64,000 bases of DNA from Verrucomicrobiaceae bacterium. Lineage in GTDB: Bacteria; Verrucomicrobiota; Verrucomicrobiia; Verrucomicrobiales; Verrucomicrobiaceae. How positions within the stretch are numbered: position 1 is the first letter of the stretch; the number at the start of each line of letters is the position of its first letter. Under the pieces are notes generated by a model. That model was not told where the DNA came from. It saw nothing but the letters and a program-made list of their open reading frames with translations, and searched no databases. Both the position numbers and the translations under genes were made by a program. Where the stretch lies: contig JAEUHJ010000045.1 of assembly GCA_016795375.1 (NCBI GenBank), positions 1 through 64,000 of the forward strand. Direction: 5' to 3'. This document shows positions 801 through 64,000 of this stretch, piece by piece.

Positions 801-903
801 TTATATAAACTATAAACACCATAGAACAATTGAGCAAACTTTGCCATGGTCTTTTTCGAGGGCGGTGACAGCCCAGATTTCCCATTTTCCATGTCAGGGT
901 TGA

Positions 904-912
904 GGGGGGGGG
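904..912. repeat. G9 homopolymer between trxB and the murJ-like gene
   Basis: An uninterrupted run of nine G (C on the coding strand) lies between the trxB stop and the murJ-like start. Long G/C runs are prone to slippage. This one is non-coding and sits in the leader of the flippase gene. Confidence 0.8.
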
Positions 913-964
913 CCAAAACCCAGGCAGTTGGGCGATGTGACGCCTCCAGTTCTGGCTTTCCGAC

Positions 965-1897: not shown

Positions 1898-1911
1898 GGT
1901 GGGTCGGAGTC

Positions 1912-1920
1912 GGGGGGGGG
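1912..1920. repeat. G9 homopolymer in the trxB leader
   Basis: Nine consecutive G on the plus strand (C on the trxB coding strand) lie 15-23 bp upstream of the trxB ATG, where a Shine-Dalgarno or spacer would be. Length changes here could alter expression; that is inference. Confidence 0.8.
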
Positions 1921-2029
1921 AAATTGAGGCGCGGAAGATGGAAAGGGCCGCCGGACGTGCAAGGGACGCTTTTTCCTCATCACGGCGTTGGAGATTCTCA
2001 AGGCACGGCGTATTCCATCAGGAACAACG

Positions 2030-3238
2030 ATGCCCAGCCCCCGCCCGGATGCCACAGCCAGCCGCACCACGCTTGCGACGCTGTTTTTCTTCGCGGCACT
2101 GCCGATGGGGATGTGGAATGTGCCGCTGGCGAATGTCTTCGCCGCTCATGGGCGCGGGCATCTGGTGCCGTGGGTGCTGGCGACGACTTCGGTGGCTGCG
2201 TTCATCTCCCCTCTGTTTGTGGCGGCTCTGGCGGACCAGAAGCATTCGCCCGTGACGCTGTTGCGCTGGCTCACCGGGGGCACGTCGCTCTCCCTGCTGC
2301 TGACCTGCGGCTCTTTGCACTGGGGGTGGAGTGATGCGCTGATCCTGGCTTGCGCGCAGTTGCAGGCCCTAGTGTCGATGCCGGTGTGGAGCGTGACTAG
2401 CAGCATCGTTTTCTCCCAACTGCATGATGCGAAGCGCCAGTTCGGGCCGCTGCGCGCCTGGGCGACAGGCGGCTGGATGGCGGGCTGCTGGATCGTCAGC
2501 TTTGTGCTGCGTGCAGATGCGTCCCTGTCGGCCGCAGTCACGGCGTCGGCGCTGTGGCTGGTGGTGATGGCGCTCACTTGGACGCTGCCCAGCGTGCCGC
2601 CGCCAGTGGTGCTGCGGCAGCGCACCTGGCGGCAGATCCTCGGCATCGACGCGCTCGAGCTGCTCCGGCACCGCGACCACCGCGTGGTGTTCATCACCGC
2701 CGCGCTCTACTGTGTGCCGCTGGCCGCCTTCTACCCGTACACCGCACGGCATCTGAGCGATCTCGGCGTGGGCAGCATCTCCGCTGTGATCTCGCTCGGA
2801 CAGACGACGGAGATTCTCGTGATGCTGCTGCTCGCCAGCCTGTTGGCCAGGGTGCGCCTGAAATGGATCTTCCTCTCCGGCATGGTGGTGTGTGTGATCC
2901 GCTATGCGTTCAACGCATTCGCCACCACCGGCTGGGTGATGGCGGGCACGCTGCTGCACGGCCTGGCATACACGCTGTATTTCATCACGGCGCAGATTTA
3001 TCTGGAGGAGCGCATCGACCCCGGCTGGCGCGTGCGGGCGCAGGCGCTACTGGCCCTGCTGATGAGCGGCTTCGGCAACATGGCGGGCTATCTCGGCGGC
3101 GGGTGGTGGCATGCGGCATGCACGAAAGGCGGCGTCACTGACTGGTCGCGCTTCTGGTGGGGGGAGACGGCGCTGGCCGCGGCGGTGTGCGTGTTCTTCG
3201 CGTTCGCGTATCGCGGAAGGGGCCGCAATCCGGCATGA
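2030..3238 (+). CDS. MFS transporter, nucleoside:H+ symporter-like
   Basis: 402 residues with about 12 hydrophobic segments, the usual fold size for the major facilitator superfamily. The N-terminal half (FFAALPMGMWNVPLANVF, then a SPLFVAALADQ loop after helix 2) resembles the NupG/XapB-like group of proton symporters. The substrate cannot be read from sequence. An upstream TTG at 1988 is in frame, but the ATG at 2030 is preferred because the extra 14 residues are not hydrophobic and the first helix follows at a normal distance. The stop codon directly abuts the stop of the convergent M3 peptidase gene, with no space for a terminator. The region upstream (1898-2029) is short and holds the divergent start of trxB. 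Confidence 0.85.
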   Translation: MPSPRPDATASRTTLATLFFFAALPMGMWNVPLANVFAAHGRGHLVPWVLATTSVAAFISPLFVAALADQKHSPVTLLRWLTGGTSLSLLLTCGSLHWGWSDALILACAQLQALVSMPVWSVTSSIVFSQLHDAKRQFGPLRAWATGGWMAGCWIVSFVLRADASLSAAVTASALWLVVMALTWTLPSVPPPVVLRQRTWRQILGIDALELLRHRDHRVVFITAALYCVPLAAFYPYTARHLSDLGVGSISAVISLGQTTEILVMLLLASLLARVRLKWIFLSGMVVCVIRYAFNAFATTGWVMAGTLLHGLAYTLYFITAQIYLEERIDPGWRVRAQALLALLMSGFGNMAGYLGGGWWHAACTKGGVTDWSRFWWGETALAAAVCVFFAFAYRGRGRNPA

Positions 3239-5487: not shown

Positions 5488-6603
5488 ATGTCCGATCCCT
5501 CACCCCTTCGCCGCACCCCTTTGCACGCCGTGCATGTGGAAATGGGCGCACGCATGGTGCCCTTCGCGGGCTGGGACATGCCGGTGCAGTATTCAGGCAT
5601 CGTCGAGGAGCACAAGGCCGTGCGGCAGAGCGTCGGAGTGTTCGACATCTCACACATGGGCCAGTTCATCGTGAGCGGCAGAGGCGCGGAGGCATTCCTC
5701 AACCGCGTCCTGACCAACAACATCGCCACGCTGCAACCCGGACAGGGCCAGTACACGCTGCTGCTGAACGCACACGGCGGCGTGATCGACGATTTGATCG
5801 CCTACCGCACCAGCGAGCGCGAATTCTTCCTCGTGGTGAACGCCTCGCGCATCGACGCCGACTGGGAGCATCTCGAATCACAGCTCACAAAGGACGATGA
5901 CGTGATGATGGCGAATGCGAGCGACTTCACCGCCGGCCTCGCGATTCAAGGGCCGAAAGCTCGCGAGGTGGCCGCCGCAGTCTTTGGCAACCACGATTCC
6001 TTCCCCGCGCACAACACGATCCTCGTCACCATGACCGACACGGGGCCGATGTGGCTCTGCGGCACCGGTTACACAGGCGAGGAGGGCTTTGAGTTCTTCA
6101 TGCCCGCCGAAACGGCTGAAGCCTGGTTCCGCAAAATCGTCGATGCGGTGAAAGCTGCCGGCGGCATGGCCTGCGGACTCGGCGCGCGTGACACGCTGCG
6201 TCTCGAAATGGGCTACCCACTCAATGGCAATGATCTTTCTGAAACGCGCACGCCGTTGCAGGCGGGCCTCGGTTTCTTCGTCGCTCTCGATAAAGGCGGT
6301 TTCACAGGCCGCGAGGTTTTGGTGGAGCAGAAAACCGCTGCTCTGCCGGACAAGCTGGCCGCCTTCCGCATGACGGGCACCACGCCGCCGCCGCGCCCGC
6401 ATTATCCCGTCGCCGTCAACGGCCAGGTCGTCGGCGAAGTGTGCAGCGGCACGCAATCCCCGAGTCTAGGCGCCGGCATCGGCATGGCTTACCTGCCGGT
6501 GGATGCCGCGAAGATCGGCAATATGATCGAAATCGAGATCCGCGGCCGCCGTTTCCCTGCGGAAGTCGTGAAGAAGCCATTTTACCGCAAACCAGCCGTT
6601 TGA
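5488..6603 (+). CDS. gcvT: Glycine cleavage system T protein (aminomethyltransferase)
   Basis: 371 residues, the usual GcvT length. It transfers the methylene group from the aminomethyl-lipoyl H protein to tetrahydrofolate and releases ammonia. The N-terminus (RTPLHAVHVEMGARMVPFAGWDMPV) starts as in the family, with DISHMGQ at about residue 54 and the folate-binding GYTGEEGFE near residue 194. The C-terminal GCV_T C domain is intact. gcvH follows after 18 bp, so the two form an operon. gcvP is not in the window and must lie elsewhere. folD and a glyA-type domain in the same window complete the link to one-carbon metabolism. Confidence 0.97.
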   Translation: MSDPSPLRRTPLHAVHVEMGARMVPFAGWDMPVQYSGIVEEHKAVRQSVGVFDISHMGQFIVSGRGAEAFLNRVLTNNIATLQPGQGQYTLLLNAHGGVIDDLIAYRTSEREFFLVVNASRIDADWEHLESQLTKDDDVMMANASDFTAGLAIQGPKAREVAAAVFGNHDSFPAHNTILVTMTDTGPMWLCGTGYTGEEGFEFFMPAETAEAWFRKIVDAVKAAGGMACGLGARDTLRLEMGYPLNGNDLSETRTPLQAGLGFFVALDKGGFTGREVLVEQKTAALPDKLAAFRMTGTTPPPRPHYPVAVNGQVVGEVCSGTQSPSLGAGIGMAYLPVDAAKIGNMIEIEIRGRRFPAEVVKKPFYRKPAV

Positions 6604-6621
6604 TTCCCAACCAGCACTCCC

Positions 6622-7002
6622 ATGAGCAACGTCCCTGACAATCTCCGCTACCGCGAATCCCACGAATGGATCGACCCGATGCAAAATCCCGCGCCGGTGG
6701 GTATCACGGACCATGCGCAGGCCGAGCTGACAGACGTCGTCTTTGTCGATCCACCCAAAGTAGGCACCCAGGTCAGCGCCGGGCAGCAGGTGTGCGTGAT
6801 CGAGTCCGTGAAGGCGGCCAGCGACATCTACGCGCCGGTCTCCGGCGAGATCGCGGAGGTCAATGAGGCGCTCAGCAACGATCCCGGCCTGCTCAACCGC
6901 GATCCCTTTCTCGGCGGCTGGATTTTCAAGATCAAACCCTCGAACATCGCCGAGGCGGATGCGTTGATGAACGCGGACGCGTATCGCAAGCACATCGGTT
7001 GA
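6622..7002 (+). CDS. gcvH: Glycine cleavage system H protein
   Basis: 126 residues, normal for GcvH, the mobile lipoyl carrier that shuttles intermediates between P, T and L proteins. The lipoylation site is lysine 64 in ESVKAASD. The family features YRESHEWI near the N-terminus and GITDHAQAELTDVVFVDPP ahead of the lipoyl hairpin are present. It follows gcvT by 18 bp. The 150 bp after its stop are GC-rich with several short imperfect inverted words containing GGTCCGGC, but no T-tailed terminator is evident before the convergent SIMPL gene. Confidence 0.97.
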   Translation: MSNVPDNLRYRESHEWIDPMQNPAPVGITDHAQAELTDVVFVDPPKVGTQVSAGQQVCVIESVKAASDIYAPVSGEIAEVNEALSNDPGLLNRDPFLGGWIFKIKPSNIAEADALMNADAYRKHIG

Positions 7003-7153
7003 GGTCCGGCTCGCCCCGAAAGTTCCCAACAACAGCACGATGCAGGTCCGGCCTGCCTCGGCCACGTCATCCGCGCCCTGCTCCGGGCCTGTGGCAGGCC
7101 GGGTGAGGACGGCAAACCGCCGCCGGACCACGAGGCGGGGCGGAAGTGACGCT

Positions 7154-7795
7154 TCACCGCGTCAGTTCCCACGTCATCAGCACCGTGTCTTCGCTGTCGA
7201 TCTCCGCCGGGTTGAAGTCCATTTCCCGCGCAGGCGAGGCCAGCGCTGTGCTGAATGCCATTGGCTGGGAGCGCACGATGATCTCCGTGTGTCCATATTC
7301 GATTGCCTGAATGCTGCCGAGCTTCTGGCCGGACGCCGAGGCGATCACCTCCGCGCGGTCGCGGGCGTTGTGCACAGCCGCCTCCAGAACGCGACGTTTC
7401 ACTGCTTCAGGATCGGACACGGTGAAGCTCAGCACCAGGCTGGCCCTGGCCTTGCATCCGGTCACCGCTGTGAGGACACGGCCCAGTTCCTTGCGGCCAA
7501 AAGGAAGCTCCAGACTCAGATGATGTTTCACGCTGTAGCCGCGGAAAGTGCGGCGTCCTTGGTTGTAGTCCTCAGTCACATGCACGCCAAACGATTCCGT
7601 CTTTAGCTGCTCCGTGTCCAGGCCGGCCTTCGGCAGCGCCTTGCGCAGCAGTTCCAGGCGCTCCGCCGCGTCCTCCATCGCCTTGTCGTATTCCTTGTGC
7701 TCGCTCTCCAGTTCCAGGCCGAGAACGATCGTGTCAGGGGCTGATGACACACTGCCGTGTCCTTGCACGCGGATGAGGGGTGGGGTTGGTTTCAT
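7154..7795 (-). CDS. SIMPL-domain (DUF541) protein
   Basis: 213 residues from the ATG at 7795. The body matches the SIMPL/DUF541 family: an IRVQGHGSVSSAPDTIVLGL strand near the start, a coiled helix (YDKAMEDAAERLELLRKAL) and a second half with RDRAEVIASASGQKLGSI. SIMPL proteins are small oligomeric proteins found in periplasm or cytoplasm with poorly defined roles. No signal peptide is visible, which suggests a cytoplasmic form. An in-frame GTG at 7843 would start inside the upstream restriction-modification gene; the ATG, 26 bp after that gene's stop, is more likely. The close spacing suggests read-through from the large gene. Confidence 0.85.
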   Translation of the reverse strand: MKPTPPLIRVQGHGSVSSAPDTIVLGLELESEHKEYDKAMEDAAERLELLRKALPKAGLDTEQLKTESFGVHVTEDYNQGRRTFRGYSVKHHLSLELPFGRKELGRVLTAVTGCKARASLVLSFTVSDPEAVKRRVLEAAVHNARDRAEVIASASGQKLGSIQAIEYGHTEIIVRSQPMAFSTALASPAREMDFNPAEIDSEDTVLMTWELTR

Positions 7796-7820
7796 GGAAA
7801 TGGAGGTCTGGAGTTTGAAA

Positions 7821-10793
7821 TCATGATTTGTTTCCAATTTCACGCGGCTCCTCCCGCAAAATCAGCGGGCCGTGATAATGAGCGGCTGCGGCGCGGGATC
7901 CGTCAGAGTCAGGCGCGTTCTTCACCTTCGCTTTCCGCTTCGGCTTGTCATACTTCACCAGTGGCGCGGTGAGCTTCTCGTAAAGAGCGAAGAGATGCTC
8001 CACGCGGGCGCGGTCGTCCGGAAACGGTTCCTTGCGGTAGCAACGGTCCACCGCGCGGTCCAGATCGGCATGCGCCTTCACCAGCGCGGGCGGCATCGTC
8101 ACCGGATCGTAGAGATCGGCCAGCGTGGAGGTGGGGAACGCGGCCCGCGCATCCAGCACCGCCTGCGCTGCTTTCTCCACCGCCGCCTTCTGCGCGTCAG
8201 TAATGTCCTGCGGCCACGGGTAGTTGTTATAGACGAGTGTGTTGGAATAGCTGTAGCGGCTTTCGAGCCTGCCACAAACCTGCCGCATCCAAGCCATGTG
8301 CATCATCGAGGTGAGTATCCCGAAATGCCAAACGGTAGCCTCCGGCACGAACTGTATCTTGTTGCTGCATATGATGTTTTTGCTGGCAAACGCGATAGGA
8401 ATGTATGTGCGGCGTTCTGACGACACCTCCGGGATCGCGAGGTAATCCGAGTCTGGCTGGGCGATCTGGCGAAACAAGGTGGGAAAGGCCGCATATTTGC
8501 GCGTGCTCTCCGCCTTGCTGGCGAGGCGCATCTGCTTCACCGCCTCCACGCGGGCGAGCACCAAGGGCAGCGTGCGCAGCTCACCGGGCGAAACATCCTT
8601 CAACCAAAGACAAAATCTCTCCACGCCATTGATGAAGTCTCCGCCACTCATGAAGGGCCGGATGTATTTCACAGCCGCAGGTTCCTTCGCGAGAAGCTCG
8701 TCACGTTCCTCCGGCGTGAGGATGAGATGCCCGCCATCGGTCGGTTTGTTGCCCCAGTTCATCTTCGGCACCTCACACAACGGTTCGGAACGGTTTGTCA
8801 CCGCCCGGTCTGGTCCTTCCACGAGATACGGGCTGATGTTTTTCACCACGGTGATCGCCGGATTCTCGGGATCAGACTCGTAATCGTAAAGGCGCTTGTT
8901 CTCCGTGTCGTGTCCGCCAAAGCCGACGATGACACAATGCACATGCGCCTTGCCACGCGCCTCGCTCTCCCAGGCGAAGGTGCGGTGTGCGAAGTGAATT
9001 TTGATGTGCCAGCGGTTGAAGAGATGCGTCCAGACAAGTCCCGCCTGCTCGCCCTGGCAGATGGAGTTGGTGGAGACAAAGGCCGCCTTCGCCTGCGTGC
9101 AGTAAATATAAGCAGCGGCTTTGAAGTGCCAGTTGGCGACAAAATCAATCACGCCGGCCGCCGAGATGTCCTCCATCACCGCCTGCTGGTCTGCCTTCTG
9201 TTCGGCGCTTTGATAGTGATGACCCACAAACGGCGGATTGCCCAGAATGTAGCTGCATTGCTCCGGTGGCAGCACCTCGCGCCAGTCTTTGCGCAGCGCG
9301 TTCGCCACGTGGATGTGCGGGCTCTTGCGCAGCGGGATGCGGCGGTAGAACTGGCCGAAGGCCTCGCTCAAAAGCACGTTGGCCTGATGATCCGCCAGCC
9401 ACAGTGCCACTTCGGCGATGCGCGCAGGGAATTCCTCGATCTCGATGCCATACATCTGATCGACGTTGATCTGGGAGAGCTGGTTCACGTCTTCGAGTGA
9501 CAGCTCGTGCTGCCGTTCTTTATGCGTGATTTGTTCCCGGCTTGAATCCTGTCCCGTCTCAACCAGCGTGTGCAACTGGAGCAAAATCTCCAGCTCCAAC
9601 TGCCGCAGCTCGCGGTAGGTGACGACAAGGAAGTTCCCGCAGCCGCAGGCCGGGTCCATGATCTTGAGGGAGGCGAGCTTCTTTTGCAGATCACGCAGGC
9701 GGTTAGGGCCGCGCCCGGACTTGTCCTTCCGTGCCGCCTCAAATTCGGCGCGCAGGTCGTCGAGAAAGAGGCTGCTCACGAGCTTCATGATGTTCTTCTC
9801 CGCCGTGTAGTGCGCGCCGAGCTGGCGGCGTTTCCGGTCATCCTCGTGGTCGAACACGGTCTGGAACAGGCTGCCGAAGACGGCGGGAGAAATCTTTTCC
9901 CATTTGAAGTCGGCGCATTCGATCAAGATCGAACGCATCTTCGAAGTGCAGTCCGCAAAGAAGGAAGGTTCTGCAAACAGATCACCATTCACATAGGGAA
10001 ACTCTGCCAGGTCATCATCGAGGTTCTTGCTGCGCTTGTTCTCCGGCGTGTTGAGCACGTTGAAGAGATGCGCCAGCCGTGCGCCGAGATCACTGCCGTC
10101 TTCAGCAGTGTGTTCACGAACGAAGAGCTTGAATTGATCCGGCGGGAAAATCCCCGTGTCATCGGCGAAGAAGCAGAAGAGCAGGCGCACGAGGAACTGG
10201 CAGAGGTCGTGGCCGCGATAGCCGCCGTCCCACAGGGCGTCGTGCAGCTTCGCCATCAACTCGGTGGCCTCGAAGTTTGCTGGATCCTCAGGGTTGAGCT
10301 TGTGGCTCTTGTAGCCGGCGATGAAGGCGAAGTGGCGCGCGTTTTTGTGCAGCTCCTTCAGCGGGAATTCCACGCTGGGCGGCAGGCGCGTGAGCAGCGG
10401 CAGGTCCGGGTCCTGCTCCGGCTCCAGATCGTGGATGGCGATGCGCTGGAAGTCGGAGACGATGAGCCAGCGCGGGGCCTCTTTCTCCCGCCCCGTGTTG
10501 ATGAGGCCGCGGATGTAGTCCATGCCCTGCGCATGCGCCTTGCCCAGGTCCTCGCCCGCGCTCTTGTGCTCCACGAGGCATGTGCCGGGCCAGAAGAGGT
10601 CGATGAAGCCCCAGTTCCCGGAGAGCTTTTTCACCGGCTCCTCAAAGGTGGCGAGCGTGCGGCGGCGCTTGCCGAACACCTCGAAAAACTCGTTCCAGAA
10701 GGTCTGCCGCTCGGACTTCTCGGAGCCCTCGCCCTTCCAGTCGCGGGAGAAGGCGATGGCGCGTTGTTTGATCTCGTTCCAGGAGAGCGGCAT
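7821..10793 (-). CDS. Type IIL (MmeI-like) bifunctional restriction-modification enzyme
   Basis: 990 residues in one chain. The N-terminal nuclease has D65-x9-E75-x-K77 (in IDLFWPGTCLVEHK), the PD-(D/E)xK arrangement of MmeI-type enzymes. The adenine-N6 methyltransferase core has motif I DPACGCGNF at about 380-388 and catalytic NPPF at 519-522. A helical linker lies between them (about 160-330), and the C-terminal 350 residues are where the target-recognition domain should be. Such enzymes methylate one strand of a short asymmetric site and cut about 20 bp away, without a separate methylase gene. That fits the absence of R-M partners here. The role is probably phage defence. Specificity cannot be read from the sequence by eye. 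Confidence 0.9.
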   Translation of the reverse strand: MPLSWNEIKQRAIAFSRDWKGEGSEKSERQTFWNEFFEVFGKRRRTLATFEEPVKKLSGNWGFIDLFWPGTCLVEHKSAGEDLGKAHAQGMDYIRGLINTGREKEAPRWLIVSDFQRIAIHDLEPEQDPDLPLLTRLPPSVEFPLKELHKNARHFAFIAGYKSHKLNPEDPANFEATELMAKLHDALWDGGYRGHDLCQFLVRLLFCFFADDTGIFPPDQFKLFVREHTAEDGSDLGARLAHLFNVLNTPENKRSKNLDDDLAEFPYVNGDLFAEPSFFADCTSKMRSILIECADFKWEKISPAVFGSLFQTVFDHEDDRKRRQLGAHYTAEKNIMKLVSSLFLDDLRAEFEAARKDKSGRGPNRLRDLQKKLASLKIMDPACGCGNFLVVTYRELRQLELEILLQLHTLVETGQDSSREQITHKERQHELSLEDVNQLSQINVDQMYGIEIEEFPARIAEVALWLADHQANVLLSEAFGQFYRRIPLRKSPHIHVANALRKDWREVLPPEQCSYILGNPPFVGHHYQSAEQKADQQAVMEDISAAGVIDFVANWHFKAAAYIYCTQAKAAFVSTNSICQGEQAGLVWTHLFNRWHIKIHFAHRTFAWESEARGKAHVHCVIVGFGGHDTENKRLYDYESDPENPAITVVKNISPYLVEGPDRAVTNRSEPLCEVPKMNWGNKPTDGGHLILTPEERDELLAKEPAAVKYIRPFMSGGDFINGVERFCLWLKDVSPGELRTLPLVLARVEAVKQMRLASKAESTRKYAAFPTLFRQIAQPDSDYLAIPEVSSERRTYIPIAFASKNIICSNKIQFVPEATVWHFGILTSMMHMAWMRQVCGRLESRYSYSNTLVYNNYPWPQDITDAQKAAVEKAAQAVLDARAAFPTSTLADLYDPVTMPPALVKAHADLDRAVDRCYRKEPFPDDRARVEHLFALYEKLTAPLVKYDKPKRKAKVKNAPDSDGSRAAAAHYHGPLILREEPREIGNKS

Positions 10794-55079: not shown

Positions 55080-55117
55080 GTCCCGGTAGTTCAATGGATA
55101 GAACGAGGGTTTCCTAA
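55080..55117 (+). pseudogene. 5' half of a tRNA-Arg(CCU) gene, truncated in the anticodon loop
   Basis: Acceptor strand GTCCCGG (55080-55086), TA, D-stem GTTC/GAAC with loop AATGGATA, then AGGGT and anticodon loop TTCCTAA (55111-55117, anticodon CCT). The 3' anticodon strand should be ACCCT, but the sequence continues ATCGGGAAGC and no T-arm or acceptor 3' strand follows. The tRNA is therefore broken exactly in the anticodon loop, a known crossover site for tyrosine recombinases. This marks the left junction of the element to the right. Confidence 0.78.
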
Positions 55118-55174
55118 ATCGGGAAGCGGGTGTTGCATGGGTTTGCAGAGCGTTGCAAAGCATTGTGCCACAAG

Positions 55175-55292: not shown

Positions 55293-55667
55293 TCAGAGCA
55301 TGTAGCCGTGTTTGCGGAGCCAGTCGGAAAGTGCTTCGGCAACGATGTCCTGCTGAGTGAACGGGTTCTGCCGCTGCAATTTTCGCTGCATGGAAGCAGT
55401 CAAAAGCGCGGTGCTGATCTCTGCTGAAATCCTCGTGTTGAGAGCCATGACGCCTGACATGGCGACCTGCGGGTTGAAGATGGGCGTTGTGGGTTGGAAT
55501 GCTGGCTGCGGAGCTGCTTCCTGTTTGAGTGCTGTTCTGGGCATAGGGGCGTCCTCCTTCCTCTGGGTTGTTTTCTTGGGTTTCTCTTTGGGCTTTGGTG
55601 TTTCTGGATTGAGGAACGCTTCCTCCTCTGGAGTCAGTCCATCGCCAAGTGTTCTGCGCTTAACCAC
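55293..55667 (-). CDS. Small ParB-like partition partner (putative)
   Basis: 124 residues, GTG start overlapping the parA stop by 8 bp. N-terminus is basic and disordered (Pro/Lys-rich, about 25-60). The C-terminal 60 residues (LTASMQRKLQRQNPFTQQDI, then VAEALSDWLRKHGYML) have the helical pattern of small partition proteins that pair with ParA, with possible ribbon-helix-helix DNA binding. The translational coupling with parA supports the assignment. There is no classical ParB domain. Confidence 0.65.
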   Translation of the reverse strand: MVKRRTLGDGLTPEEEAFLNPETPKPKEKPKKTTQRKEDAPMPRTALKQEAAPQPAFQPTTPIFNPQVAMSGVMALNTRISAEISTALLTASMQRKLQRQNPFTQQDIVAEALSDWLRKHGYML

Positions 55668-56283
55668 GGGTCATCTCCTTCATGAGCTGCTGCATTTCAT
55701 GGGACGCGAGCAAGGCTGACGCTCCCATTTGCCAGACAACTTTCGCCTGCCCCGCTGCATCCGCGAAACTCTGACGTTGGGAAAGTCCGCCAAGAACATC
55801 AATCCCCAGCTTCTTCGCAGCACCTAGCATTTCGCGACTGAGACGGCCTCGCTTCTGAAGCTTGTTTGGAATGAGCACGCCGGTTGGCTTTCCCCTTCTG
55901 GCCTTCTGCGCTTCGCGGAGCAACTGCACTGCTTTTGAAGCAGCGCGAAGATCCAGGATGGAAGGACCGCAAGGTAGAAAGACGCGGTCGGAACGGAGCA
56001 TGACTGCCCTTGTTGTTGAGGAAAGACCTGCCGGTCCATCAATGACTACATCATCTGCGTTTTCCGCGAGTTTTGCCACTCGTTGAACGATGTCCTCCGG
56101 CTCTGAAATCAGTTCCAGCCGGATGGGAAGGCCAAGCTCCCGAATCCATTGCGATGCCGAATTTTGCGGATCAGCGTCGATGAAAGTGACGCTGCGTTTC
56201 TTTTTGGCGAGCCATGCAGCAAGGTGAACCGCGATTGTGGTTTTGCCGACGCCGCCCTTTGAATTTGTAAGTCCATAAATCAT
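55660..56283 (-). CDS. parA: Plasmid partition ATPase ParA
   Basis: 207 residues from the ATG at 56283, a small type Ib ParA. Walker A NSKGGVGKTTIAVHLA near the N-terminus, D-A-D-P-Q-N-S (A') near 36-42, DDVVIDGPAGLSS near 75-87. An ATG four codons upstream (56295) is possible but directly abuts a -10-like TATCAT. It forms a two-gene unit with the ParB-like gene. The upstream region has an inverted repeat suitable for autoregulation. Confidence 0.92.
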   Translation of the reverse strand: MIYGLTNSKGGVGKTTIAVHLAAWLAKKKRSVTFIDADPQNSASQWIRELGLPIRLELISEPEDIVQRVAKLAENADDVVIDGPAGLSSTTRAVMLRSDRVFLPCGPSILDLRAASKAVQLLREAQKARRGKPTGVLIPNKLQKRGRLSREMLGAAKKLGIDVLGGLSQRQSFADAAGQAKVVWQMGASALLASHEMQQLMKEMTRG

Positions 56284-56304
56284 GTATGGGCACATGATAG
56301 TGCC

Positions 56305-56328
56305 TGTTCACGAACACTGAACTGTTCG
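56305..56328. promoter_or_regulatory. Candidate parA operator
   Basis: Palindrome TGTTC-AC-GAACA (56305-56316) overlaps a wider CGAACA-N6-TGTTCG (56311-56328). They lie 20-45 bp upstream of parA over its likely promoter, as expected for autorepression by ParA or ParB. Confidence 0.5.
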
Positions 56329-56455
56329 TCAGCCAGCAGACTGCGCATCGGCTCTTTTTATGGAACATGGTGGCAGACTTGCAACACAGCCAGCTTGCAA
56401 GATTGCTAGCTTGCTCGCAGCTCATAGCGATCTGCTCTTCCCTCAAATGCCTGAC

Positions 56456-56533
56456 GGCAGGCGAGCCTCTCCAAAAGGCTCGTCGCCTGCCGACGGGTTT
56501 AAGTGTTTTAATTCTTTGTTTAAGTAAGGTTTA
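56456..56533. other. Origin hairpin and AT-rich unwinding region
   Basis: An imperfect hairpin (GGCAGGCGAGCC / GGCTCGTCGCCTGCC, 56456-56491) is followed by an AT-rich segment 56498-56533 with two direct TTTAAGT repeats 21 bp apart and TTTTAATT between them. This looks like the DNA-unwinding element of the iteron origin next to it. I saw no consensus DnaA box (TTATNCACA). The remaining part of the 56284-56455 gap holds the operator and repeated CTTGC words. Confidence 0.6.
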
Positions 56534-56577
56534 TGGATGCCGAAAGCCTTGCGCTACTTGGCTTGCAGAGGTGTTCT

Positions 56578-56761
56578 GGTCGCTGGAGCCACGATAGAAG
56601 GTCGCTGACCCCACGATAGCAAAGTCGCCAGCCCCCCGATACCCGGTCGCTGGCCCCGCGATAGGGTCGCTAACCCCCCGATATTTCAAGGTTGTTGGCA
56701 CCACGAGGGGTGTTCGTCCCAAAGGCCGAAATCATCCAGAAGGTCGCTGGCACCACGATAT
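56578..56761 (+). repeat. Seven iterons of a plasmid replication origin
   Basis: Copies of about 20 bp with consensus GGTCGCTGGCCCCACGATAG start at 56578, 56600, 56623, 56645, 56665, 56690 and 56742. Most are spaced 20-25 bp (about two helical turns). The 56690 copy is degenerate. They sit directly upstream of the rep gene and downstream of an AT-rich region, the classical arrangement of iteron origins. Confidence 0.85.
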
Positions 56762-56795
56762 TGTTATTTAACATCGAATCTGGTATGCCCATTGA

Positions 56796-57968
56796 ATGGG
56801 CAGGAAGATCGAGGGTGGCATCATAGAAAATCAAGACCTTGCGCGGTTTACCGCCTCCCCTGCAAACGTGGCTCCCAAAGACCAGATTGATCTGATGGCC
56901 CGAAACTGGTTCAGCCTGACTCCAGGCCGCACGGAGCCAATTCAGCATCAGTATGTGGATGCCAAAACCGGCCTTACGGAGACCGTCCGTATCACAGGAA
57001 GTGCTGAATACGGAATAGCCACAATCTTCGACCAGGATTTGCTCATCTTCGCAATCTCGCAGTGGATTGATGCGAAACGCTCCGGGCTGGAGCCTTCACG
57101 AAGAATTCACTTCACTCCTTATCAGTTCTTTTCCTGGCTGGGCATTGCTCCACATGGGACGGCGTATGCGCGACTCAAGGAAGTGCTTCATAGACTCAAA
57201 ATGACGAGCATCCAGACGACGATTCGGTCTGAGACCGGGAAACGTAATCGTAACCGCATCAGGCAGTTCTCATGGATTTCAGAATGGGAAATCACAGAAG
57301 AGCAAGGCGAGGTGCGCGGAATTGAGGTCGTGCTGGCGGAGTGGCTGTTTGAAAGCATCCAGGATTTTCACGTCCTCACGCTGGACAAGCGCTATTTTGA
57401 GATTCCGGGAACCGTGGAGCGCTGGCTGTATCTTTATGCTCGCAAGGCCACCGGCGGGCCGAGCGGCATCTGGAAGGAGAGCTTCAAAAACCTCTACCAA
57501 AAGTCGGCATCACAGCAGGAATACAAGCATTTTGCGAGCACCCTCCGAAAGTTGGCAAAGAAGGACAATCTTCCCGGAATGCGCCTCGAAAAGGTCTGTT
57601 CCGTAGCGGGCAAAGACATGCTGTTGATGGAACGCATGGACAAGCGTTCCTCAACTGAGGCGGTTGCGGCACCGGCCAAGGCTGAGATTCAGCTTTCGCT
57701 CATTGAACGAACGCCACTTGAGGAAGCCTGGGAGAACGTCCTTGAAATCATGCGCAAGCGCGAGGGCGCTGAGCAGGTGCGGGCTTGGTTGGAGAAACTT
57801 CATCTGGTTAGTCTCCAGGATGAAACGCTCAAATTCCGCGCTCCAACCAAGTTCATCGCTGAGTGGGTCTCGAACAATTTCAAGCACAAGCTCGAATCTG
57901 CCTGGGAATCAATCGGGCAACCGTTAAAGGGCATCTGCATCGAGTCCGGTTCAAAAAAGGCTGCTTAG
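56796..57968 (+). CDS. Plasmid replication initiator with DnaA-domain-I-like C-terminus
   Basis: 390 residues, start 35 bp after the last iteron. The N-terminal two-thirds resemble RepA/TrfA-type initiators (RPA family): MARNWFSLTPGRTEPIQHQY near 34, FTPYQFFSWLGI near 107, and a winged-helix-like part with GTAYARLKEVLHRLKMTSIQ. Residues about 305-380 resemble DnaA domain I: LEEAWENVLEIMRK, WLEKLHLVSLQD, LKFRAPTKFIAEWVSNNF. DnaA domain I recruits the DnaB helicase; a Rep carrying its own copy could load helicase directly. That is inference. The start ATG is the first in frame. Confidence 0.85.
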   Translation: MGRKIEGGIIENQDLARFTASPANVAPKDQIDLMARNWFSLTPGRTEPIQHQYVDAKTGLTETVRITGSAEYGIATIFDQDLLIFAISQWIDAKRSGLEPSRRIHFTPYQFFSWLGIAPHGTAYARLKEVLHRLKMTSIQTTIRSETGKRNRNRIRQFSWISEWEITEEQGEVRGIEVVLAEWLFESIQDFHVLTLDKRYFEIPGTVERWLYLYARKATGGPSGIWKESFKNLYQKSASQQEYKHFASTLRKLAKKDNLPGMRLEKVCSVAGKDMLLMERMDKRSSTEAVAAPAKAEIQLSLIERTPLEEAWENVLEIMRKREGAEQVRAWLEKLHLVSLQDETLKFRAPTKFIAEWVSNNFKHKLESAWESIGQPLKGICIESGSKKAA

Positions 57969-57976
57969 AAAAGCGC

Positions 57977-58864
57977 TCATGTCCTCTGGCGAAAGAAATC
58001 GATCGCTTCGTTGAGCATCGCTGCCTTCTCATTGTTCTCGGCTGCTGAAGAGTTCGGGTCGGGATGGAAAGCCTTGATGAGATCGCGATAATTGCGTTCA
58101 GCCTGCTCAACATCGTAGGGCGGATGGGGTGGCATCAGCCTGAGCAATTCCGCGTATCGCTGCTCTCTGGCTCTTTCATTCTCGTCTGGAGCCGTGTTCG
58201 GAGCGCGTTTGGCGCGTGGTTTCCGGCCACCTGCGTTTGGCAGAGGGGCATCAGTAAAGGTGCCGCCAGCGGGCATTTTCTCCTCCGCGTCCTCGATGAT
58301 GTCGCCGTGCTTCTTCTCTGATCTGATCCCGTACCAGTAGTTGATGAATTCCTTCAGCCACATGCCTGCCATGACAAAGATCAGCCAAGTGGAGAGTCGT
58401 TGCTCGCCCATGAATGCCCGAAGTGCTGTGGCAGCAACGAATACGAATGCCGGTTCAAACCATAGATGAAGCAGGGTTTCAAAACGCGCATTGCCCCGAT
58501 TCTGCGAGAAGCCCGGAAGCCTCAAAAGATGCGAGGTGCCGGAATAGAAATCGTGGCGCCCTTGTTTTCTGGTTTCGCGGAGGACAGCCACCGCAAGGTG
58601 AAGGATGTAGAGCAAGGAAGCGCCGATGGCGAACATTGCCACGGCCCAATATTTCGTCCAAGCGCCCTGCTCATTCCATGCGTAGATGACGAACAAAAGA
58701 GTAGCCCAGATGAAGGAGAGAAAAACGCTTTTGGGGCTGAGGAAGGAGAATCCAAAACCGGATCGCAGGAAGACGATGGCCGGTATGGCAAGCCAATGCA
58801 GAATCGGACTGATGAGAGGAACGCTCGGAAGCGGGCCTGAAGTTTGGATCTGCCTGTCTTTCAT
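57977..58864 (-). CDS. Membrane protein with C-terminal J-domain
   Basis: 295 residues. Four or so membrane helices (about 20-37, 45-62, 70-95 and 136-165). The cytoplasmic C-terminus (about 235-295) has helix II (QAERNYRDLIKAF), the HPD tripeptide at 267-269 and helix III (AMLNEAIDFF), the minimal J-domain that stimulates Hsp70/DnaK. It is downstream of the coupling-protein gene, 8 bp apart, so they form an operon. Because the coupling protein has no membrane segment, this protein may act as its anchor. It converges with rep. Confidence 0.78.
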   Translation of the reverse strand: MKDRQIQTSGPLPSVPLISPILHWLAIPAIVFLRSGFGFSFLSPKSVFLSFIWATLLFVIYAWNEQGAWTKYWAVAMFAIGASLLYILHLAVAVLRETRKQGRHDFYSGTSHLLRLPGFSQNRGNARFETLLHLWFEPAFVFVAATALRAFMGEQRLSTWLIFVMAGMWLKEFINYWYGIRSEKKHGDIIEDAEEKMPAGGTFTDAPLPNAGGRKPRAKRAPNTAPDENERAREQRYAELLRLMPPHPPYDVEQAERNYRDLIKAFHPDPNSSAAENNEKAAMLNEAIDFFRQRT

Positions 58865-58872
58865 TGTGGAAC

Positions 58873-60411
58873 TCAGTAGCGTTGGGGGAATGAATGGCGG
58901 ATGTGGTTCTGTGCGACCGGCTCGCCTTTCTTCATGCCAAGCCAGCGTCTCCCTCCCTGAAAAATGATTGCATCTGCCAGGAAGTTCGATTCCGCGCCTC
59001 CGGTGCGAAGCATGGTGAACTCCTGTGGTTGCACAACGTATTCAACGACCATGCTGCCCCCGGCGCTCTGATTCATTGCCCCGCCCTTTGCCAGTGCCTC
59101 GGAAAGCCCGCCGTAGAATTGCGCTTGCCGGGTTTTGCCGATTGAGTCGGAAGCCCAGTTGTTGGTATTGGGATCGCCGTTCGCGTGGAAAATCTTGGTC
59201 TGGAGGTTGCCCAAAAAGCTCTCGGCGTCCGACCGCGCATTCTGTCCGCCAAAGGCGGAAAAGTAGCTGGGGAGGTTCTGGGTCAAATAGACGGTGCAGG
59301 CGCGAGAACTGCGAGCGGTGCTTTGGAAAAGCGCATCGTAGGAATTGACGAAAAACTGAGATTCGTCCGCCCAAAGAAAGACGGGGCGAGCCGCAGCCTG
59401 TGCCGCTTCGCGGGACGTGCCTGCGGAAATCCTCCGTTCGACGGCTCGCTGCCAGATGAATTTGAAGAGCACCTGGGCGAACTGTCCCAGCTCGTTGAAC
59501 TCCTTCACCGGGAGGTTGAGAAGGATCACCCTGCCCTTGAAACAATCCTCAGGGCCGAATGTGAGGTCAGTGCAAAAAAGATCCCGCAGCAGGCCCCGCA
59601 GGAAGCAGTCGGCCATACTGGTGAAGGTGGAGACGATCACGGACCGGGTTTCTGGGGCCAGCGAGGGAAATTCCCGCATCCAAAAGTCGCGGGTCAGCTC
59701 AAAATCACTGCTCCGCCCCTTTTCATGCGCCCTGCCCGCCGCCACCTCCAGGAGGGCGGCGCAGGCAGATACCTTTTTCCAGTCGGGATTTTCTGCCTCT
59801 TCGACCGAACGCGGGGCGGAAGTGATGATGCGGTAAAGGGAAGGAAGATCAATGTCATCGAGGGCGAGGACGGCAAGGTCAATGGCGTTACGGAGGAGCT
59901 GTTTGAGGGTCCGCTGCCAGTAGGCGTCCTGCCCGCCTCCCTGCCCTTGCTTTCGTTCGGCGGCTTCGAGCACGCTGCAAAAGAGGTTCACCAGATTCTC
60001 GGTATGCCCTGCCCCCGTTCCGGGCCGCTTGAACTCGTAGCGAAGGAAGTTGAAGCGGTGGGGGCCGCCCGGCTCGACAATGAGCAAATCTGACTCACGT
60101 CCGGCAGCCTGGGCGTAGCGCCGCCATGACAGCACTTCATCGCTTTTGGCGGTCAGGACCAGTCCGCCAAGGTTGGATTCCATGAATGCCCTTGCGATGG
60201 CCTGCCCGCTCCCGGAAGACTTTCCAGAACCCGTTGCCCCGAAAATCTGCACTCCTTCAAACGCATCCTTGAGACACCAGTAGTTTTCGGGCGGGCAGTT
60301 TTTGCCGTCATGGCTCAACTCCAAAAGTGCCTCATCATCGTCCGGCCAATTCGGTTTTGGGGTGGATTGGGAGGCGTCCAGGGGACGCTTGGCGAGAGTG
60401 AAATCATCCAT
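58873..60411 (-). CDS. Type IV coupling protein ATPase (TraD/VirD4-like) lacking membrane helices
   Basis: 512 residues. FGATGSGKSS (Walker A, 57-66), Walker B region PVFLWADESQFF near 352, and YLTQNLPSYFSAFGG near 385 as in TraG/VirD4 proteins, which deliver relaxase-bound DNA to the mating pore. Typical coupling proteins begin with two membrane helices; this one starts with a short soluble segment (about 50 residues) before Walker A. The next gene in the operon is a multi-pass membrane protein. A divergent relaxase gene lies 356 bp away. Confidence 0.88.
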   Translation of the reverse strand: MDDFTLAKRPLDASQSTPKPNWPDDDEALLELSHDGKNCPPENYWCLKDAFEGVQIFGATGSGKSSGSGQAIARAFMESNLGGLVLTAKSDEVLSWRRYAQAAGRESDLLIVEPGGPHRFNFLRYEFKRPGTGAGHTENLVNLFCSVLEAAERKQGQGGGQDAYWQRTLKQLLRNAIDLAVLALDDIDLPSLYRIITSAPRSVEEAENPDWKKVSACAALLEVAAGRAHEKGRSSDFELTRDFWMREFPSLAPETRSVIVSTFTSMADCFLRGLLRDLFCTDLTFGPEDCFKGRVILLNLPVKEFNELGQFAQVLFKFIWQRAVERRISAGTSREAAQAAARPVFLWADESQFFVNSYDALFQSTARSSRACTVYLTQNLPSYFSAFGGQNARSDAESFLGNLQTKIFHANGDPNTNNWASDSIGKTRQAQFYGGLSEALAKGGAMNQSAGGSMVVEYVVQPQEFTMLRTGGAESNFLADAIIFQGGRRWLGMKKGEPVAQNHIRHSFPQRY

Positions 60412-60767
60412 GCGGTAGGAGTGGGAGGCGGCTGAAAGCCTAGCCGTTCAGCCGACCTGGGGCGAGCGGAAAAGACAGCCTAAGCACTGCTTAGGGGAGA
60501 TGTCTGAAGACACTGTTGCAATATTGCTAGCAAGCTAGCACGCACGCAAGAACGCCAGCTTTCAAGGTGGCAAGGAGGCCAGCAATCAGGCTCGCTGGCT
60601 TGCATTGCTGCTGGCTGGCAAGCATTCAAACAAGGTGGCAATCTCGCGAGGTAGAAGGCATACTTGCTGGAGAGCGAGAATGCCCGCTTGCGAGGTTGCA
60701 AGTAGGCAAGTTCTGCCTACCGGGCAGCAAAATGGATTTGGCGGGCAAATTATGGTAATCTGAAACA
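60412..60767. other. oriT-like region between coupling protein and relaxase genes
   Basis: 356 bp without a credible gene. It holds a perfect 17-bp palindrome CCTAAGCA-C-TGCTTAGG (60479-60495), GCTAGCAAGCTAGC (60526-60539), two CAAGGTGGCAA direct repeats (60563-60573 and 60631-60641) and a hairpin GTAGGCA-AGTTC-TGCCTAC (60702-60720), 47 bp before the relaxase ATG. Relaxase genes usually have oriT next to them, with a hairpin beside the nick site. The nick site cannot be identified by eye. The region also holds two divergent promoters. Confidence 0.6.
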
Positions 60768-63700
60768 ATGCTAAGAGTCGTGGCCCATACCAGCGCGGCG
60801 GCAGCTCGCAAATACTATGCGGACGGCCTGAAACGCGAAGACTACTACTCGGAAGGCCAGGAGATCGTTGGCAAATGGCATGGCAAAGCCGCTGCGAGGC
60901 TTGGCATTGAGGGGCAGGTGGACCGCGAGCAGTTCGCGGCGTTGGTTGAGAACCGGCATCCGGTGACAGGGCAGAAGCTGACGCCGCGCACAAAGGACAG
61001 GCGCCGGGTCGGCTATGACCTCAATTTCCATGCGCCAAAAAGTCTCTCGGTGCTCTATGCCCTGACACAGGATAAAGAGGTTCTGGCCGCGTTCCGGCAG
61101 GCAGTGGCCGAGACCATGGCGGAACTGGAGGAGAGGGCGGAAACTCGGGTCCGCAAGAAAGGGGCGGAGGAAAACCGTGTCACAGGCAATCTGGCTTGGG
61201 CAGAGTTCGTGCATTTCACGTCGCGGCCCGTCGGGGGTATTCCAGACCCGCACCTGCACGCGCACTGCTTCACCTTCAACGCCACCTTTGATGGGGTGGA
61301 AGGCCGCTGGAAAGCGGCCCAGTTTGGGGCCATCAAACGGGAGGCGCACTATGCTGAGGCTGCGTTTCATGCACGGCTGGCGGCCTCGCTTTCCAAAATG
61401 GGCTATGGCATTGAACGCCGAAAAGGCGGCTGGGAGATTCAAGACATGCCTGCCAGTGTCCTTGCCAAATTCTCGCGGCGCACCGCTCAGATTGAGCGGC
61501 TGGCGGATGAAATGGGGATCAAGGACGCAAAGGCCAAGGATGGTCTGGGGGCGGCCAGCCGCGAGGGAAAGCGGCACGGGATGAGCTTTTCTGACCTCCT
61601 GGCAGCGTGGAGCGTCCGGCTGACGGATGATGAAAAGGTCCAGATTTCAAAGGTCTGCTATAATAGAGGGGCGGGCAGGGCGGTGCGAGTATCAGCTGCG
61701 GAGGCCGTCGATCACGCACTCTCAAAGCTCTTTGAAAGGCAGTCGGTTGCGGAGCGCGGCCACATTCTGGCGGCAGCGCTTCGGTTCGGTGCCGGTGATG
61801 TGACGCCACAGCAAATTAAGGCAGAATTTGAGCGCAGGGCGTTGATTGGCCGGAAGGTCGGTGATCAGCACCTATGCACCATGCGAGAGGTTTTAGCGGA
61901 GGAAATTGCTCTTGTGGGCTTTGTCCGCACGGGGCGCAATTCGGCGATGCCGCTCGGCGGCAGGGGAAGAGTGGTGCTCTCCGAAAAGCTTTCGGAAGAG
62001 CAGCGGGCAGCCGTGAAGCATCTTCTTTCCAGCCGTGACCAGGTGATGGCGATTCGGGGTGGGGCGGGGGTCGGCAAAACGACGCTCATGCAGGAGGCGG
62101 CAAAAGCTATCGAAGCAAGAGGGCTCAAATTCTTCGCCTTTGCTCCGTCGGCGGCGGCATCCCGAGAAACCCTGCGGGAGGCAGGGTTCGCAGGTGCCGA
62201 TACGGTCGCGCATCTTCTTCTGAATCAGAAGCTGCAAAAGCAGGTACAGGGGCAGGTCATTTGGGTGGATGAGGCTGGCCTCCTCGGGGTGCGCGATTTG
62301 TGGCACATCATGGAAGTGGCAGGGCCTTCGACCCGCATCATCTTGACCGGCGATACCGCGCAGCACGCACCGGTGGCAAGGGGCGATGCCTTCCGCCTGC
62401 TGCAAAAGCATGCGGGCCTCCGGGTTGCGGAAGTCACACAGATCCGAAGGCAGGAGATCGAGGACTACAAGAAAGCGATTGAAGCTCTCGCAAAGGGTGA
62501 CATCAGAACCGGTTTTCGGAGGCTGGAAGCACTCGGAGCATTCATCGAAATCGAGAGTGAGGCAGAGCGCCACCGCGAATTGGCGGCCGATTATCTCGCC
62601 CTCGGGAAAAAGGGAACACCTCCGCTGGTCGTGTCTCCCACGCACGCGGAAAGTGGAAAGGTGACGGCGGCGATTCGTGAAGCGCGGCGAGCGGCGGGAC
62701 AGCTCGGCCCGGAGCGCCGATTGGTCCAGTATCACAATCTGGCCTGGGAAGAGGCGGAAAGGCGCCTGCCGGAGAATTATCGGGCGGGACTCGTGGTGCA
62801 ATTTCACCAGAATTCAAAAGGCATCATGCGGGGTGCGAGCTTCCGGGTAGCGGGACGCCGGGAGGATGGCAGTGTGAAACTGGTCACACCATCAGGAGAA
62901 GAAGCCACCTTGCCTTTGAGCGAAGCTGCCAAGTTCCTCGTGTACGAAGAACGCGAAATCGCTTTGGCAAAGGGAGACCGCATTCGCATCACGCGAAACG
63001 GCGAGAGCCAGAATGGAAAGCGCCTCAGCAATGGCAATCTCTTGACAGTGGAGAAGTTCGGAAAAAGGGGCGAGATCGTGCTCAGCAACGGCGCGGTGCT
63101 CGCGGCAAACCATGGGCATTTTGCGTATGGCTACTGCCAGACCTCACATTCCAGCCAGAGCAAGAGCGTCCGGGATGTGCTCATTGCCCAAAGCTCAGAT
63201 TCGTTCGTTGCGAGTTCCCGCGAACAATTTTATGTGTCGTGCAGTCGTGGGAAGCAAACTGTTCGCATTTACACAGACAACCGCCAGGAACTCCAGCAGG
63301 CGGTTGGAATCTCGTCTTCCCGAATGGCTGGGGTGGAACTTGCGGACCTTTCCGCAGCAGACCTTGCCGCATTCATGAGCACCGAACTTGGCGCAAGACA
63401 GTGGCGCGATACCATCCAGAGCCGCAGAGGGGTGGACGGCTCCAGAACCTTCGTGGAGAAGCTTGTGGAGCAGCGCAAAACCGACCCCACTTTGCAAAAG
63501 CCAAACGACATGTCGTGGAAGGGCTATATTGAGATGCGCCGCAACCTCGCCGGGGCGGATGGCAAAAGCCGCTCCAAGGGGCATCCTGCGGCGATGACGA
63601 AGGGGGCGAGTGTTAAAGGCAAGACCTTGCCGAAGCGAAGCGAGCATTCGGCGTCCCGAGTTGCAGAATTGAAAGCCACCCGAGAAGCAAAGCGGCAGGA

Positions 63701-64000
63701 TGCCGCCAAGGAAAAGCCGAAAGCGTCTGAGGCGCAAAAGGTCCGACAGAAAAGCCGCATGGCAAAAGCATACGATTCCGCGGCAAGCCACTTCAAAAAA
63801 GTGGCGGACAAGGTGCGCGGAAGGTCAGCGCCGCCACCCGAAGGCAAGGTGGTCAAGATGGGGTCAACCAACGTAAAGCCGTTGCACAATAACAACGCAG
63901 AGCGAGCGGCTGCGCACGCGAAGCGGGAAAAAGCAGCAAGCGCTAGGAAAAGCGGTGAACAACAGGCTAAAAAGATGAGTGAAGCAAAGGCGAAACAGAC
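60768..64000 (+). CDS. MobF-type relaxase with RecD-like helicase domain, C-terminus beyond window
   Basis: 1,077 codons visible, open at the right edge. TrwC/TraI-type relaxase domain (about 1-290): tyrosine pairs YY at 16-17 and 26-27, and the metal-binding HLHAH at 162-166. The helicase has Walker A GGAGVGKTTL near 432, Walker B VIWVDEAGLLG near 499, GDTAQHAP near 527 and motif VI VSCSRGK near 824. Residues beyond about 900 are basic, helical and low-complexity. The relaxase nicks and unwinds plasmid DNA for transfer. The ATG at 60768 gives the conserved N-terminus MLRVVAHTSA. Confidence 0.95.
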   Translation, partial: MLRVVAHTSAAAARKYYADGLKREDYYSEGQEIVGKWHGKAAARLGIEGQVDREQFAALVENRHPVTGQKLTPRTKDRRRVGYDLNFHAPKSLSVLYALTQDKEVLAAFRQAVAETMAELEERAETRVRKKGAEENRVTGNLAWAEFVHFTSRPVGGIPDPHLHAHCFTFNATFDGVEGRWKAAQFGAIKREAHYAEAAFHARLAASLSKMGYGIERRKGGWEIQDMPASVLAKFSRRTAQIERLADEMGIKDAKAKDGLGAASREGKRHGMSFSDLLAAWSVRLTDDEKVQISKVCYNRGAGRAVRVSAAEAVDHALSKLFERQSVAERGHILAAALRFGAGDVTPQQIKAEFERRALIGRKVGDQHLCTMREVLAEEIALVGFVRTGRNSAMPLGGRGRVVLSEKLSEEQRAAVKHLLSSRDQVMAIRGGAGVGKTTLMQEAAKAIEARGLKFFAFAPSAAASRETLREAGFAGADTVAHLLLNQKLQKQVQGQVIWVDEAGLLGVRDLWHIMEVAGPSTRIILTGDTAQHAPVARGDAFRLLQKHAGLRVAEVTQIRRQEIEDYKKAIEALAKGDIRTGFRRLEALGAFIEIESEAERHRELAADYLALGKKGTPPLVVSPTHAESGKVTAAIREARRAAGQLGPERRLVQYHNLAWEEAERRLPENYRAGLVVQFHQNSKGIMRGASFRVAGRREDGSVKLVTPSGEEATLPLSEAAKFLVYEEREIALAKGDRIRITRNGESQNGKRLSNGNLLTVEKFGKRGEIVLSNGAVLAANHGHFAYGYCQTSHSSQSKSVRDVLIAQSSDSFVASSREQFYVSCSRGKQTVRIYTDNRQELQQAVGISSSRMAGVELADLSAADLAAFMSTELGARQWRDTIQSRRGVDGSRTFVEKLVEQRKTDPTLQKPNDMSWKGYIEMRRNLAGADGKSRSKGHPAAMTKGASVKGKTLPKRSEHSASRVAELKATREAKRQDAAKEKPKASEAQKVRQKSRMAKAYDSAASHFKKVADKVRGRSAPPPEGKVVKMGSTNVKPLHNNNAERAAAHAKREKAASARKSGEQQAKKMSEAKAKQ

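Follow-up and report, generated by a model that had tools for sequence, protein, structure and literature searches.

How is a coupling ATPase that has no membrane segment of its own held at a membrane, and what does a J-domain do on the membrane protein encoded next to it? These questions are raised by two adjacent genes of a Verrucomicrobiaceae bacterium, which we have analyzed within a stretch of 64,000 nucleotides (the window). VirD4-type coupling proteins (T4CPs) need their membrane part, and no transfer is seen with TrwB deprived of its transmembrane domain (TMD) (PMC7434980). T4CPs that lack an anchor and have a membrane partner have been described as a subfamily, exemplified by TraJ/TraI of pIP501; experimental precedents are pIP501 TraJ with TraI and R27 TraG with TraJ (PMC7434980, PMC13037476). 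As for the second question, relaxases have to be unfolded for export by a T4SS, and which protein is the unfoldase is a stated open question (PMC5826034).

Here, we suggest that the two genes encode one split T4CP with a membrane anchor that is supplied in trans, a reading to which, judging from sequence, we would give a probability of roughly 0.7. The J-domain is best read as an optional, lineage-specific module on the anchor of this split T4CP.

Results

The T4CP (Table 1) scores over the Pfam cut-offs for TraG-D_C and T4SS-DNA_transf and has the TraG-D_C region and the NBD with Walker A and B motifs that define the superfamily. A first-pass annotation of the locus had claimed that the N-terminal anchor of this protein is missing, and this claim was confirmed: no hydrophobic or transmembrane segment was found in the protein by hydropathy and AlphaFold models, on which all transmembrane calls made here are based, i.e. 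the N-terminal TMD of VirD4-type T4CPs is absent. The frame upstream of the start is open for 12 more codons only, and a TMD hidden by a frameshift or a late start was rejected, as no TM-coding frame is joined upstream. The AlphaFold model (pLDDT 89.1) has Cag-beta of H. pylori and TrwB as first-ranked structural matches. It aligns over almost the whole length of TrwB-deltaN70, a coupling protein from which the membrane part was removed on purpose (Foldseek, E ~1e-10, TM-score 0.68 by target length), and has an all-alpha domain inserted in the NBD (helical block 122-291). Thus, the T4CP resembles TrwB of R388 in the fold of NBD and all-alpha domain and in the Walker motifs and differs from it in the absence of an N-terminal TMD and in sequence (~13% identity); as modelled, it would in effect be a natural counterpart of the TrwB truncation that crystallographers have used. 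By profile comparison, the nearest solved sequence is DotL/IcmO. HerA and TdpA folds are secondary structural matches, and together with the defence genes present on the same island they could be taken to suggest that the pair serves a role outside conjugation, e.g. as a defence motor of the HerA kind that has a membrane partner. However, Cag-beta and TrwB rank first structurally and a relaxase gene is divergently adjacent to the pair and conserved with it, which makes such a role highly improbable.

Table 1. Features of the T4CP/membrane protein locus and of the island around it (window positions, unless a contig or residues are named)
Feature	Position	Strand	Length or residues	Remarks
attL	55086..55118	.	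33 bp	Perfect direct repeat of part of the tRNA-Arg(CCU) gene
Small protein downstream of ParA	55293..55667	-		Likely partition partner, judged from position
ParA-family partition ATPase	55660..56295	-		Pfam CbiA/ParA
RepA-type replication initiator	56796..57968	+		Convergent with the J-domain gene
Membrane protein (putative anchor)	57977..58864	-	295 aa	Four TM helices and C-terminal J-domain
Basic segment of anchor			residues 214-220	RKPRAKR
J-domain of anchor			residues ~228-295	C-terminal
HPD tripeptide of J-domain	58058..58066	-	residues 267-269	Between helices II and III
Coupling ATPase (T4CP)	58873..60411	-	512 aa	Anchorless, VirD4/TrwB-type
Walker A of T4CP			residues 58-66	GATGSGKSS
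Walker B of T4CP			residues 345-350	FLWADE
Intergenic region	60412..60767	.		Between the divergent T4CP and relaxase genes
MobF relaxase-helicase	60768..64000	+	N-terminal 1077 aa	TrwC/TraI-type; continues beyond the window end
Tyrosine integrase	contig C57:94089-95330	-		Adjoins attR
attR	contig C57:95303-95335		33 bp	Second copy, within intact tRNA-Arg(CCU); beyond the window

The next gene follows 8 bp after the T4CP stop on the same strand and in the same transcription unit, and its product is, as had been annotated, a multi-pass membrane protein with an HPD J-domain. In the AlphaFold model (pLDDT 80), TM helices span residues 47-64, 73-98, 126-152 and 155 to ~180; the fourth continues as a long helix, which gives way to a basic, disordered stretch and, at the C-terminus, a domain of three helices. 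K and R are enriched in the loops predicted to be cytosolic in a positive-inside pattern, suggesting that the C-terminus with the J-domain lies on the cytosolic side. The C-terminal domain has the J fold of three helices with the HPD between helices II and III and matches the J-domains of human Tid1 (Foldseek p=0.96) and E. coli DnaJ (p=0.89, 2.1 A over 53 columns). Its Pfam DnaJ score of 21 bits is below the curated gathering cut-off of 27.8, and the J-domain call therefore relies on the alignment of orthologues and on the model. DnaK-binding J-domains such as that of DnaJ usually have a basic helix II surface; compared with DnaJ, such a surface is lacking here, the net charge of helix II being 0 in the window protein and -3 to +1 in the family. 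For the membrane half, no Pfam or NCBIfam family was matched and Foldseek found no fold match in the PDB besides those of the J-domain part. G38 (in an FG motif), G109, E137-P138 (in TM3) and D188 (after TM4) are invariant in this family across phyla, and H104 is nearly invariant.

The two genes are part of an integrated island of 40.2 kb in tRNA-Arg(CCU) that carries RepA, ParA, the MobF relaxase, a tyrosine integrase and the T4CP with its membrane protein. With integrase, att direct repeats and relaxase, the island has the features of an integrative mobilizable element. VirB4 (PF03135, PF19044) and VirB10 (PF03743) had no match in the genome, a metagenome bin that is 87% complete and in which absent transfer genes may be assembly gaps; within the limit set by this completeness, transfer should therefore need a helper, and the element would be mobilizable but not self-transmissible. 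On one side, the pair is flanked by the replication-partition module (55293-57968), on the other by the divergent relaxase gene, the product of which matches NCBIfam MobF above its cut-off (1e-61). The block of 55.2-65.8 kb is conserved as one unit in relatives, as delimited by tblastx of relative loci against the contig (G115, G237 and G033 were used, and noisy loci were left out). Within this block, the best match of the ParA-family protein is NCBIfam ParA_partition, below its cut-off, and orthologues of the small protein, 40-54% identical, are found behind ParA in relatives. The RepA-type initiator (Pfam RPA 7e-58, DnaA_N 1e-12) is fused to a C-terminal DnaA_N-like domain. The region between the T4CP and relaxase genes likely holds promoters and perhaps oriT; it is dense in short GCAAG/CTTGC-like repeats and is a candidate oriT. 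Beyond the window, the same island encodes a long prokaryotic Argonaute (PADLOC pAgo_II, E=8e-230; contig C57:79993-83501, i.e. L010:15993-19501), which is followed by an associated gene for a helical restriction nuclease, with HEC-05 and SoFic-like defence genes nearby.

Co-conservation of the pair had been set as a test by the first-pass annotation, and the pair passed it. Of 56 genomes belonging to the same genus and order, eight encode the membrane protein, and all eight have an adjacent T4CP (70-100% identical). In every close relative found, the two genes have stayed together, and the pairing of the T4CP with the J-domain membrane protein is therefore not due to chance. In a wider scan of 84,980 species genomes, 325 relatives of the T4CP were found; none was found in a scan of viral contigs. 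The loci of the best 80 of these 325 relatives, several of which come from metagenome bins, were searched with a profile built from the membrane half of the window family only. Among the 6962 stop-to-stop frames of these loci, 53 matched at E<1, all beside a T4CP: 50 directly downstream of it, one following the second T4CP copy of L061 and two at most 2 kb downstream. No match was found elsewhere in the 80 loci, and since many other membrane ORFs in them were not matched, the signal does not reflect mere hydrophobicity. An expanded profile recognized the anchor in 68 of the 76 loci that could be assessed, with representatives of Verrucomicrobiota, Planctomycetota, Bacteroidota, KSB1, Calditrichota, Chloroflexota and Pseudomonadota. 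T4CP stop and anchor start overlap by 4 bp in 15 loci, and among the 74 T4CPs of the family that were examined, the N-terminus ahead of Walker A is hydrophobic in none. Relaxase genes were recognized near only part of this wider T4CP family.

That one family of membrane partners follows anchorless T4CPs immediately downstream in several phyla strongly supports the earlier proposal that the anchor may work in trans. Moreover, the genome encodes one TraG-D_C protein, and no second T4CP, anchored or other, was found in the island or the genome, which removes the objection that the first-pass annotation itself had raised. Exclusion proteins frequently adjoin traD-like genes, and the membrane protein could, in principle, be no anchor but serve entry exclusion or another accessory function at the membrane and be encoded behind the T4CP by happenstance. 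We consider this improbable, given that exclusion proteins are variable whereas the residues listed above are invariant across phyla, that the protein is strictly coupled to anchorless T4CPs, and that, going by the VirB4 and VirB10 searches, the element appears to have no mating apparatus to exclude. In eight of the 76 loci, no recognized anchor was found downstream of the T4CP, implying either that a different partner exists or that some members of the T4CP family need none. Five of these eight loci are from Opitutaceae (L108, L112, L115, L124 and L126), in which anchorless T4CPs of the same family occur without a recognizable downstream anchor. On proteobacterial plasmids with anchorless T4CPs of this family, the next gene encodes a small TM protein too divergent to join the anchor family by profile. 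Same-genus genomes also contain a second T4CP subfamily (38% identical), the anchor of which has 223-225 aa and no J-domain, and a marine Verrucomicrobiales locus (L061) has two T4CP-anchor pairs ~3 kb apart, 369-2866(-) and 6001-8327(+), one of them with a J-domain.

Among the loci fetched, the J-domain is confined to one Verrucomicrobiaceae/-ales clade. Of the 21 members of this clade, 14 have an intact HPD, four have a degraded tripeptide (RPD, RVD, GGD or HSD) and three have no J-domain and terminate directly after the basic motif; related anchors carry other short tails at the position of the J-domain. In the T4CP tree, these states correspond to at least three independent losses of the HPD and to two losses of the whole domain; near-identical rows inflate the number of HPD members, and the event counts are independent of them. 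The proteins that have lost the HPD retain the fold pattern (PP[YF]..L..AE..Y and LNEAI.FFR). Among HPD members, mean identity is 55% in the J-domain vs 52% in the membrane half (ratio 1.08); in comparison with members that have lost the HPD it is 44% vs 51% (ratio 0.89). This greater divergence of the J-domain where the HPD is lost suggests that the HPD matters where it is present. Together, these comparisons indicate that the HPD probably does something where present and is inessential to the module.

The first-pass annotation had proposed that DnaK is recruited and unfolds the large relaxase. In that model, the J-domain of the anchor recruits DnaK to the entrance of the channel, where DnaK, through its ATPase cycle, unfolds the MobF relaxase, a large protein, ahead of its translocation. 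The host genome has DnaK homologues (Hsp70s), the window relaxase is large, and relaxases must unfold to pass a T4SS by means of an unfoldase that is unknown (PMC5826034); the HPD is intact in two-thirds of the clade, and the members with an HPD conserve the J-domain about as well as the membrane half. On the other hand, helix II is not basic, HPD and J-domain were lost repeatedly, and these losses left in place the membrane half and the T4CP, as well as the MobF relaxase wherever it can be seen. Specifically, the element of G018, the anchor of which lacks a J-domain, retains an intact and uninterrupted MobF relaxase that is 67% identical to that of the window, and MobF relaxases are also encoded beside J-less anchors of the same family elsewhere (L065, L066, L082, L086, L116, L117 and L123). 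As a general mechanism, the proposal was therefore not upheld, and we regard it as doubtful; the repeated decay of the HPD and loss of the J-domain beside retained relaxases imply that any role of DnaK would be at most that of an auxiliary, lineage-specific aid. Alternatively, the J-domain may be a docking or assembly module that binds the T4CP or the relaxosome directly without involvement of Hsp70. In this it would resemble Pam16, a degenerate J-like protein. The fold pattern that outlasts the HPD, the non-basic helix II and the other short tails at the same place in related anchors argue for such a module, but the majority of the clade keeps the HPD and the J-domain diverges more where the HPD is lost, so that we rate this alternative as plausible, if somewhat short of even odds.

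Discussion

The data suggest a VirD4/TrwB-type T4CP in two parts: the 512-aa ATPase would be its cytosolic motor, and the protein with four TM helices, co-translated with the motor and acting in trans, would anchor it in the inner membrane. We propose that (i) the anchor binds the motor and positions it, as a hexamer, at the base of the secretion channel of a helper element, (ii) the complex of MobF relaxase and DNA is handed over at the seated motor, and (iii) the end of the cytosolic tail of the anchor varies by lineage, with a J-domain in one Verrucomicrobial clade. An intact HPD, as an optional add-on, may recruit host DnaK to the motor or the relaxase, although any contact with DnaK is conjectural; where the HPD has been lost, docking is probably the only role left to the J fold.

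This arrangement has parallels in several known systems. As in Inc18 pIP501 TraJ/TraI, a soluble VirD4-type ATPase is encoded next to a small membrane protein that is the proposed anchor, and the absence of a TMD together with an adjacent membrane protein places the T4CP among those described as lacking a TMD. However, the Inc18 TraI-type protein (that of the pIP501 relative pRE25 was used) has 143 aa and two helices and is encoded upstream, whereas the anchor here has 295 aa and four TM helices and is encoded downstream; also, unlike here, the pIP501-type pair sits in a full conjugation operon and has no J-domain on the anchor. The TraG-J pairs, i.e. R27 TraG/TraJ, likewise include a T4CP that needs an adjacent multi-pass membrane protein of ~200 aa, but in R27 the TMD is part of TraG itself. 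In hhalign comparisons, the anchor showed no homology to the Inc18 TraI-type protein (probability 0.3%; one sequence, pRE25) or to a DUF4400 protein (R27 TraJ candidate; 0.2%). The anchor would therefore act in the manner of the pIP501 and R27 systems while belonging to neither partner family. CloDF13/MOBC mobilizable plasmids similarly carry a relaxase and their own T4CP, and they lack mating-pair genes (PMC7434980), as the present element probably does; the element described here differs from them in being integrative with att sites in a tRNA gene, in its MobF relaxase and in its split T4CP.

The J-domain has its own parallels. In membrane J-proteins of the DjlA class, the J-domain is membrane-tethered, as it is here; here, by comparison, the membrane part belongs to a T4CP-linked family, the G/F and zinc domains of DnaJ are absent, and the J-domain has repeatedly been degraded or lost. 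On pRE25 (Inc18), a plasmid with a T4CP of the anchorless kind, the gene of a DnaJ-domain protein (L132:17907-18404) lies ~1.2 kb upstream of the gene for the mobQ relaxase; this may be another case, separate from the present one, in which J-domains and anchorless T4CPs are linked. A Rhodothermus marinus plasmid (L009:7338-8213) encodes a J-domain protein between cas2 and cas6 of a CRISPR locus; assignment of the J-domain to a CRISPR-linked family was rejected, since only the J-domain matches and the plasmid protein is soluble and has an unrelated context.

The first-pass annotation knew of no described system of this form. This view has to be revised for the combination of an anchorless T4CP with a membrane partner, which had been described (PMC7434980), and stands with respect to the J-domain, in that no described system with a J-domain on the anchor was found and a literature search for J-domains in connection with coupling proteins or relaxases gave nothing relevant. 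The anchor family had not been described, and the principle of a split T4CP was already known.

Splitting of the coupling protein into motor and anchor would be a widespread design that crosses phyla and has its own, unnamed anchor family, and current T4CP surveys would log its members merely as odd truncated T4CPs. Anchors with an intact HPD, with a dead HPD and without a J-domain occur in close relatives and constitute a natural experiment on the unloading or unfolding of relaxases by Hsp70 (PMC5826034). Recruitment of host DnaK to the secretion channel by the J-domain on the T4CP anchor, and unfolding of the relaxase there, seems unlikely to us; if it were true, it would directly answer, at least in this lineage, the question of which factor unfolds T4SS substrates.
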